Shown here: in pieces, positions 17,104 to 18,195 of the stretch
How the letters are laid out: each line of letters begins with the position of its first letter
Numbering within the stretch: position 1 is the stretch's first letter
Virus record (IMG/VR): IMGVR_UViG_3300027917_000157
Coordinates: 1-26,356 of that record
Direction: 5' to 3' (one strand)
Source: a virus
Length of the DNA: 26,356 nt
Position numbers and translations under genes: made by a program
The notes under the pieces: generated by a model
What the model saw: only the letters and a program-made list of their open reading frames with translations
The model's database searches: none
What the model was told of the DNA's origin: nothing

Positions 17104-17148
17104 TTGTGTATCACTACAAACTATTTTGTAACAATAGCTACAAAATAT

Positions 17149-17156
17149 AATAAATA
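17149..17156 (+). promoter_or_regulatory. late-type promoter motif / A+T-rich promoter region upstream of the riboswitch
   Basis: AATAAATA lies in a run of TATAAT and AATAAATAATA at 17146-17160, about 20 bases before the structured leader. It could be a late-type -10 or, using TATAAT at 17146, a sigma70 -10 without a clear -35. Either would transcribe the riboswitch and the small ORFs. Confidence 0.35.
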
Positions 17157-17179
17157 ATAATAGTATGGTGACATACTCA

Positions 17180-17240
17180 CGTTCATCACAAATAGTGACG
17201 GAAGTAGGATGTTATTGACAGATAACAAACGAAGGAACGC
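17180..17240 (+). ncRNA. glutamine riboswitch-like aptamer (glnA / Downstream-peptide class)
   Basis: The leader can fold into a three-helix junction. P1 pairs CGTTC (17180-17184) with GAACG (17235-17239). P2 is TCAC/GTGA (17186-17189 with 17195-17198). P3 is TGTTAT/ATAACA (17210-17215 with 17222-17227). The unpaired joining strands CGGAAGTAGG (17199-17208) and ACGAAGG (17229-17235) match, as I recall them, the conserved core of the glutamine-binding glnA and Downstream-peptide RNAs of cyanobacteria and cyanophages. The latter class lies before short ORFs, as here. A hairpin TAACT-CTC-AGTTA (17245-17257) between the aptamer and the AAGGAG site may be part of the expression platform. Ligand binding is inferred. 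Confidence 0.82.
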
Positions 17241-17272
17241 TTTTTAACTCTCAGTTATTAAGGAGATTTCTC

Positions 17273-17452
17273 ATGTCTAATAAAATATATAGAGGGGTTC
17301 CATATACTACCCTCTCAGATTTTAATGTATCAACTGATTCATCTAAAGTATACCGTGGTGTTAAGTACATTAACACTCATAAGAGAACCGATCCCAAAGT
17401 AGTAAATGAATATTACCGTGGTGTTCGCTTTCAAAAAGTTATAGGAGGTTGA
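17273..17452 (+). CDS. YRG-repeat small protein (DUF4278-like), riboswitch-controlled
   Basis: This 59-residue protein starts at ATG 17273, with AAGGAG at 17260-17265 as a strong ribosome binding site. It consists of three copies of a short motif: IYRGVPY, VYRGVKY and YYRGVRF, spaced about 20 residues apart. The tyrosine-arginine-glycine-valine-x-tyrosine motif is that of DUF4278, a family of small cyanobacterial and cyanophage proteins of unknown function. It is the first gene after the glutamine-riboswitch-like RNA, so its expression probably responds to glutamine, meaning host nitrogen status. Function is unknown. Confidence 0.8.
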   Translation: MSNKIYRGVPYTTLSDFNVSTDSSKVYRGVKYINTHKRTDPKVVNEYYRGVRFQKVIGG

Positions 17453-17557
17453 ATCATGAACAAAAATTTCGTCACCTTCCTTAAAAATAAGGAAGCTAAA
17501 AGAAAAAATCTGAAAAATGCACAATTACTTATTGCCAAATTGCCTCAAGTGGCATGA
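17443..17557 (+). CDS. very short basic peptide with strong ribosome binding site
   Basis: The coding part is ATG 17456 to TGA 17555-17557, 33 residues: MNKNFVTFLKNKEAKRKNLK followed by NAQLLIAKLPQVA. The range given here includes a perfect AGGAGG at 17443-17448, eight bases from the ATG and inside the end of the previous gene. The product is basic (nine Lys/Arg in the first 20 residues) and could form one amphipathic helix. The stop overlaps the next ATG (ATGA). The strong binding site argues that it is translated. I recognise no family; a small glutamine-synthetase-inhibitor-like peptide is conceivable given the riboswitch, but there is no clear similarity. Confidence 0.6.
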
Positions 17558-17712
17558 TTAATTATATCTATCACGAAAAAGATCCAGATGAAAGACCCCC
17601 CTCATGCTATCAGCTAAAATATAGAGGGTGTATTTACTGGGCTTGTTATGAGATAGAGATATCAGATTGGCTTAACAAGTTACTAAATACTCCAGACAAC
17701 CTGGACCATTGA
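17554..17712 (+). CDS. small protein with one YRG motif
   Basis: This 52-residue frame starts at ATG 17554, overlapping the previous stop as ATGA, and ends at TGA 17710-17712. It contains QLKYRGCIYWACYE (about residues 20-33), a single copy of the YRG-x-x-Y motif seen three times in the first protein of this cassette, with C18, C26 and C31 nearby. The rest is polar at the N-terminus (YHEKDPDERPPS) and helical at the end (DWLNKLLN). It is probably a divergent DUF4278-like protein co-expressed from the riboswitch leader. The stop codon lies within a -35 box for the next gene. Confidence 0.6.
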   Translation: MINYIYHEKDPDERPPSCYQLKYRGCIYWACYEIEISDWLNKLLNTPDNLDH

Positions 17713-17737
17713 CACCTTCCCTCTTACCTGCTATGCT
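17709..17737 (+). promoter_or_regulatory. sigma70-type early promoter
   Basis: TTGACA at 17709-17714 (perfect -35), a 17-base spacer, and TATGCT at 17732-17737. Predicted start is near 17744, 27 bases ahead of ATG 17771. The -35 box contains the TGA stop of the preceding ORF. Confidence 0.7.
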
Positions 17738-17770
17738 AAGGGGGAATTTTTTTACCGAACTACGGATAGT

Positions 17771-18067
17771 ATGGATACCGAAAAAATAAAAATTCTAATC
17801 AGAACTATAGAACTTTCTCTTGATAAAATCAAAGAAGAATTATACAAAGATAACCAATCAACTAAGAAAATAAAAAAAGAAAAATCCCAGAAAAGATACG
17901 ATGAATGTAAAAAATCTGTATCTGAAAATTTAGATAAAATGGAAAAATTAAACTATTCTGATAATACGGATGATGACATATATGATTTGATAACTACTGG
18001 GAAATACAGTATGCCAGATGATTTTGAAGGATTATGGAAAAGACAAAAAAACTACTCAAACTACTAA
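17771..18067 (+). CDS. hypothetical charged helical protein
   Basis: This 98-residue protein is very rich in Lys, Glu and Asp, predicted largely helical with coiled-coil character over residues 1-60 (LIRTIELSLDKIKEELYKDN, ENLDKMEKLNYSDN), then an acidic stretch (TDDDIYDLITTGKYSMPDDFEGLW). No family recognised. It is the first gene after the TTGACA/TATGCT promoter, so early expression is likely, which is typical of small host-takeover proteins, but no function can be assigned. Its end overlaps the next ORF by 34 bases. Confidence 0.65.
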   Translation: MDTEKIKILIRTIELSLDKIKEELYKDNQSTKKIKKEKSQKRYDECKKSVSENLDKMEKLNYSDNTDDDIYDLITTGKYSMPDDFEGLWKRQKNYSNY

Positions 18068-18195
18068 AACGTCTAATTAAACAAGAACATTTGTTTGATG
18101 ATCAAAAATTAAGAGAATATAAGAGTCAAATAAAAACGTTAGAAAAACAGATAGCAAAATACAATAAAGAACAATCAAAAGGATTTGGAAATTAG
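18034..18195 (+). CDS. small coiled-coil protein of unknown function
   Basis: A 53-residue frame from ATG 18034 to TAG 18193-18195, overlapping the previous gene by 34 bases and ending one base before the thyX ATG. The product, MEKTKKLLKLLKRLIKQEHL and onward through LREYKSQIKTLEKQIAKYNK, is a Lys-rich helix with heptad-like leucine and isoleucine spacing, so a short coiled coil is likely. It fills the only gap between its neighbours. No family recognised. Confidence 0.55.
   Translation: MEKTKKLLKLLKRLIKQEHLFDDQKLREYKSQIKTLEKQIAKYNKEQSKGFGN

Follow-up and report, generated by a model that had tools for sequence, protein, structure and literature searches.

The window analysed here, a virus record of 26,356 bases (IMG/VR IMGVR_UViG_3300027917_000157), raises the question of what a glutamine-sensing leader ahead of three tiny genes does in a phage. 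The window carries a T4-like myovirus gene set (baseplate hub, gp32-like single-strand binding protein, exonuclease, ThyX and the S-adenosylmethionine decarboxylase SpeD), and judging from these genes its source is a T4-like cyanomyovirus. The hub, the gp32-like protein, ThyX and SpeD bear out the phage setting given in a first-pass annotation of this DNA. The DNA of the region showed no similarity to the phage collection searched.

The aptamer

The following elements were located in the leader.

17178-17243, + strand: type-1 glutamine riboswitch aptamer, RF01739 (cmscan, full-length)
17180-17184/17235-17239, + strand: P1 (inspection, consistent with the energy fold)
17186-17189/17195-17198, + strand: P2 (inspection, consistent with the energy fold)
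17210-17215/17222-17227, + strand: P3 (inspection, consistent with the energy fold)
17199-17206, + strand: aptamer core CGGAAGTA
17230-17235, + strand: aptamer core CGAAGG

When the whole window was scanned by cmscan with all Rfam families, the single match was RF01739 (Glutamine), which scored 40.3 bits against a cut-off of 35 (E-value 1.1e-5) and covered model positions 1-53 of 53, placing the leader in this family by a full-length covariance score above the gathering cut-off. RF01704 (Downstream-peptide, glutamine-II) had no match anywhere in the window, and the leader is not a member of that family. The first-pass annotation had named the class as glnA/Downstream-peptide and proposed the Rfam search; the glnA half of that assignment stands and the Downstream-peptide half falls. 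The three-helix layout that it described at 17180-17240 was recovered as P1, P2 and P3, and both joining strands that it cited, CGGAAGTAGG and ACGAAGGAACG, are present in the aptamer. Free-energy folding of 17178-17269 returned the same three helices followed by a hairpin over the Shine-Dalgarno (SD) sequence. As the z-score of this fold was a modest -1.43, we base the RNA assignment on the covariance model together with the relatives described below. Glutamine binding by the aptamer is predicted from its sequence.

Expression platform and flanking elements

17150-17157, + strand: possible T4-late-type promoter element ATAAATAA (inspection; weak)
17240-17265, + strand: expression platform, anti-SD CTTTTTAA (17240-17247) pairing with TTAAGGAG (17258-17265) (folds, arm-swap test)
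17260-17265, + strand: SD AAGGAG of ORF1 (sequence)
17717-17753, + strand: terminator-like hairpin TTCCCTCTTA/TAAGGGGGAA followed by a T run (inspection)

The SD at 17260-17265 is the strong ribosome binding site that had been noted behind the aptamer. Pairing is possible in the window between CUUUUUAA (17240-17247) and UUAAGGAG (17258-17265), and the predicted minimum adopts a slightly different register in which the SD is still covered. Across phage leaders the SD-pairing strand begins right after P1, and the two arms occur as matching pairs (CACC...GGUG, CAUC...GAUG, CACU...AGUG, CUCUUUA...UAAGGAG). Swapping the arms among phage leaders gave a mean of -3.33 kcal/mol (sd 0.14) against the observed -4.41, with none of 300 swaps as good; with one leader kept per distinct arm (15 leaders), 1 of 500 was as good. 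The SD hairpin therefore co-varies, which supports translational control. Ligand-driven strand exchange was sought in the folds, where competition between the SD hairpin and P1 amounted to about one base pair at most. Because P1 and the SD hairpin merely adjoin, the folds do not reveal how glutamine opens the hairpin, and the leader of the window may be an OFF switch.

Elements similar to ATAAATAA (TATAAATA/CTAAATA) lie 5' of the aptamer in many relatives. In freshwater phage promoters (L394, L297, L307, L318 and other loci), the -10 element lies inside a palindrome (GGGTATAATACCC, GAGGTATAATACCTC) beside the T4-late-type TAAATA. The window has AGTATGgtgaCATACT at 17162-17177, just upstream of the aptamer and in the position of that palindrome, which could be an operator. 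At the other end, the terminator-like hairpin has a 10-nt loop, longer than the limit of the scanner, and likely marks the end of the operon.

The three small ORFs

17273-17452, + strand: ORF1, 59 aa, three YRG motifs, DUF4278 (PF14105; Pfam)
17443-17448, + strand: SD AGGAGG of ORF2, within the end of ORF1 (sequence)
17456-17557, + strand: ORF2, 33-aa basic peptide (S-SRM01 gp19 similarity, synteny, pN/pS)
17554-17712, + strand: ORF3, 52 aa, one YRG, ATGA overlap with ORF2 (conserved cyanophage family)

ORF1 matched PF14105 over residues 5-52 with 26.5 bits, a narrow margin over the gathering cut-off of 25.3 that nonetheless makes it a member; marine viral relatives scored up to 29.4, and the freshwater 45-aa proteins about 20.5, below the cut-off. 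DUF4278 is the N-terminal part of IF17, a glutamine synthetase inactivating factor, and genes of this class are the ones that cyanobacterial glutamine riboswitches chiefly lead; within IF17 it increases stability and inhibition strength, the basic C-terminal part attaches to glutamine synthetase by electrostatic contacts, and the role of DUF4278 proteins in marine picocyanobacteria has been described as open (PMC6316151). The first-pass annotation had described the 59-residue protein with three YRG motifs, the 33-residue basic peptide and the second YRG protein as they are found here. Its remark that no similarity to glutamine synthetase inactivating factors was visible is incorrect, because ORF1 is DUF4278, the N-terminal domain of IF17. 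Of the profile searches that it had suggested, the one with ORF1 led to PF14105, and ORF3 matched no Pfam family, DUF4278 included. By sequence, ORF3 is a separate conserved family, matched by 37 cyanophage records (best E-value 2e-10) and also located behind the riboswitch in L340, L345, S-WAM2 and S-RIM8.

A profile search of the PDB for DUF4278 gave no match. The AlphaFold2 model of ORF1 (pLDDT 69, pTM 0.26) placed every YRG next to a beta-hairpin and was too weak for a fold search. Neither tblastn with ORF1 nor a direct viral scan with ORF1 alone returned a match; as these and the DNA search were empty, relatives were reached through ORF2, ThyX and a neighbouring ORF of 221 aa.

ORF2 showed 58% identity over its full length to gp19 of Synechococcus phage S-SRM01 in tblastn, a match with an E-value of 0.1 on its own that is syntenic. 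The ORF2 family comprises about 30 distinct basic peptides at syntenic phage loci, whose core aligns without internal gaps. In relatives, pN/pS was 0.26 for the 33-aa class and 0.08 for a second class, with the 45-aa YRG proteins again at 0.26, as rough counts pooled across non-independent pairs; this purifying selection indicates that the small ORFs are real genes.

Homology of ORF2 to IF7/IF17 was considered and dropped. An approximate IF7 query matched NF052599 (IF7A) at 123.6 bits, and the later IF-core profile was built from genome sequences of cyanobacterial loci. This profile had no hmmsearch match in the ORF2 family; in hhalign of the ORF2 family against the IF core, 69 of 200 column shuffles were as good, and in an ungapped profile test with fused and isolate members added, 747 of 2000 were as good. 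ORF2 stands where IF17 has its core, but by IF core sequence it is not a member of the glutamine synthetase inactivating factors. As all three homology tests were negative, we claim for the operon a probable mode of action like that of IF17, and do not claim that an inactivating factor is encoded there.

Conservation and modularity in relatives

Relatives were sampled as IMG/VR neighbours of ThyX and the 221-aa ORF. Glutamine-type aptamers were present in 48 loci, counting the window and S-SRM01 and including several identical or overlapping copies, and most of these loci encode a YRG protein and then a basic peptide. The order in S-SRM01 (aptamer, 45-aa YRG protein, 33-aa peptide, homologues of 17771-18067 and 18034-18195, ThyX, PhoH) is that of the window, and the cassette adjoins ThyX in S-SRM01 and in many IMG/VR contigs. 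Lying between the operon and ThyX, the small ORFs at 17771-18067 and 18034-18195 are conserved in S-SRM01 and in relatives.

The modules also occur in other arrangements. The basic peptide stands alone directly 3' of the aptamer in several loci (L380, L340, L269); in S-WAM2 and S-RIM8 a single ORF joins the basic and YRG modules, with a homologue of ORF3 behind it; and in two marine contigs (L020, L038) a basic helix is fused to a YRG motif. In cyanobacterial genomes, riboswitch-led loci include full IF17 genes and short ORFs with the IF core only. From these fusions, solo forms and IF17/IF-core loci it follows that phage and host share a modularity under the same sensor, in which DUF4278 and the basic module occur each by itself or together. 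The riboswitch-led ORFs of about 50 aa in cyanobacterial loci L146, L123, L150, L204 and L168 consist of the IF core without DUF4278 or the QGKP...YDRS tail, and are possible minimal glutamine synthetase inactivating factors.

A gene nested in the second aptamer of relatives

Many relatives carry a tandem pair of aptamers. The P2 slot of the second one is occupied in 114 elements by an ORF of 49-69 codons, and in 21 elements by a plain hairpin of 10-25 nt. The ATG of the nested ORF lies 3-5 nt past CGTTCA, within the 5' strand of P2, and its stop lies within the core motif GAC-TGA-AGGAACG in 106 of the 114 elements (103 TGA, 3 TAA), 15 or 18 nt into the motif (53 elements each). P2 closes the nested ORF, the first bases of which pair with the last, and the pairs change together (UCUAU/AUAGA, UCCCA/UGGGA, UCCUC/GAGGA). 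The mean P2 stem was 5.84 bp, against 4.34 bp (sd 0.14) with arms swapped (0 of 2000 as good). This comparison ignores phylogeny, but in the 67 distinct segments the pairs vary in both arms. The nested form was found in the isolates P-SSM2, P-SSM7, S-SZBM1, S-WAM2, S-RIM8, DSL-LC02 and S-SRM01, in the last of which the ORF reads through the core with no stop there, and the loci that bear it include L411-L416, L242 and IMG/VR loci. Its 3' motif was absent from 386 cyanobacterial genomes in an exact-pattern scan, which divergent copies would escape.

With the start in the P2 stem and the stop in the core, glutamine binding by the second aptamer and translation of the nested gene may be mutually exclusive. 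The window has one plain aptamer with no nested ORF, and so the nested form is context and not a property of the window. We tentatively suggest, with less than even confidence, that the locus in the window represents the simple version of a glutamine-sensing cassette specific to phages, and that its nested relatives, which are the commonest ones, would toggle between the nested gene at low glutamine and DUF4278/basic-peptide effectors imitating IF17 at high glutamine. The relatives thus add an RNA architecture in which an aptamer encloses a gene. No description of it turned up in our literature search; as evidence of novelty this is weak.

Survey of viral and bacterial aptamers

The viral aptamer pattern occurred in at least 120 viral stretches. 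Among the matches listed, and leaving out ORFs shorter than 20 aa, 87 of 89 distinct SD-led first ORFs were at most 75 aa long, all 87 of these were net basic (median +7), and 21 of the distinct first ORFs carried YRG. Unrelated tiny basic families, none with a known function, were also seen behind the viral aptamers listed (L002-L121): MTKYQ..RAVKK, MTYRPFQWKKF, MNFKWDL, MTMWTRYCR and MTDRFTHLFKAR...GTSGY. According to one review, the glutamine riboswitch is reportedly restricted to cyanobacteria. RF01739-like aptamers were observed in non-cyanobacterial genomes (L125-L241; SAR86, marine alphaproteobacteria), where they often lead ORFs resembling, by eye, glutamine synthetase, ammonium transporter or glutamate synthase. 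In marine viruses, many glutamine riboswitches lead other tiny basic proteins, some of them probably in phages of non-cyanobacteria, and thus glutamine synthetase is not necessarily the target throughout.

Proposed function and alternatives

A glutamine riboswitch that leads small proteins in a cyanophage is real, and the link from riboswitch to nitrogen status drawn in the first-pass annotation is upheld. In the reading that we favour, the type-1 glutamine riboswitch would be the leader of a small operon in a T4-like cyanophage. Without glutamine, the ribosome binding site of ORF1 would be locked in the hairpin beside the aptamer; with glutamine, when nitrogen is plentiful, translation would be permitted. 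ORF1 and the basic ORF2, probably with ORF3, would then form a two-module effector working like the host IF17, on the template of which DUF4278 would stabilise a basic peptide that binds glutamine synthetase. We give this whole explanation a probability of about 0.55. The fusion of the basic helix to the YRG module in S-RIM8 and S-WAM2 makes the two-module effector likely. The ON direction is argued by analogy with the Synechocystis gifB and Prochlorococcus riboswitches; in both riboswitch types tested, glutamine activates expression (PMC6316151). The virus probably reads and adjusts the nitrogen state of its host; the chances that host nitrogen assimilation is the target appear even, and glutamine synthetase in particular is less likely than not.

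The riboswitch might instead be a timing device, responding to glutamine that rises as phage protein synthesis ends and releasing late small proteins unrelated to nitrogen metabolism, with nucleic-acid or ribosome binding or lysis timing as candidate functions. Late-promoter-like elements precede many aptamers, the small net basic first ORFs of the survey would suit nucleic-acid binding, and lysis timing has been proposed for phage Melnitz (PMC9004378). We nevertheless regard this as rather unlikely, as in cyanobacteria DUF4278 has a specific link to nitrogen control and the same domain and riboswitch are paired in phage and host. The presence of DUF4278 in IF17, a glutamine synthetase binder, also bears on the idea that DUF4278 and the basic peptide act, like PirA, on PII or another nitrogen regulator. 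Small PII-binding proteins are reported to be common in cyanobacteria (PMC8092223), and the ORF2 family is without IF-core homology, but no sequence link was found between ORF1-3 and known PII binders, and we consider a PII-type target unlikely. A decayed leader that has lost glutamine binding would accord with the modest fold z-score; it is very improbable given the intact conserved cores, the 40.3-bit score and the aptamers kept at the same genomic place in many phages, in which the P2 sequence varies and the pairing is preserved.

Cyanophages redirect host metabolism via small inhibitor proteins, for example CP12. If the IF17-like reading is true, the operon would be the nitrogen counterpart of CP12: through the RNA sensor of its host, the phage would sense glutamine and restrict an IF17-like effector to times of plentiful nitrogen. 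The finding also offers a testable function for DUF4278 proteins.

Comparison with known systems

Glutamine riboswitches have been reported in cyanophage S-CREM1 (PMC9964418) and, associated with tmRNA, in marine phage Melnitz (PMC9004378), and are known in cyanophages also from PMC9602691. The RF01739 aptamer in a T4-like phage is common to S-CREM1, Melnitz and the window. The accessible parts of the S-CREM1 and Melnitz reports make no mention of DUF4278/basic-peptide genes, and the Melnitz switch goes with tmRNA, unlike that of the window. The DUF4278/basic-peptide cassette was not found in our literature search; as far as the literature searched shows, it is new that a phage operon encodes DUF4278, that this has a conserved basic partner which in relatives is fused to YRG, and that relatives carry the nested form.

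The glutamine-II/Downstream-peptide class (RF01704) is unmatched by the aptamer of the window, and gave weak sub-threshold matches in the first tandem aptamer of P-SSM2, P-SSM7, S-WAM2, S-RIM8 and S-SZBM1. In sequence and three-helix structure, the window aptamer is like the type-1 glutamine riboswitch (glnA RNA, RF01739), for example that before Synechocystis gifB. Both lead a DUF4278 gene and have a translation-level platform near the SD, whereas the riboswitch of the window is phage-borne, has a short SD hairpin directly abutting P1 and heads three tiny ORFs, not one IF17 gene. Compared with IF17 (gifB) itself, the modules in the window are separate genes and the 33-aa basic module is not homologous to the IF core by three tests, while the DUF4278 N-terminal domain, the riboswitch class and the presence of a basic partner module are held in common.
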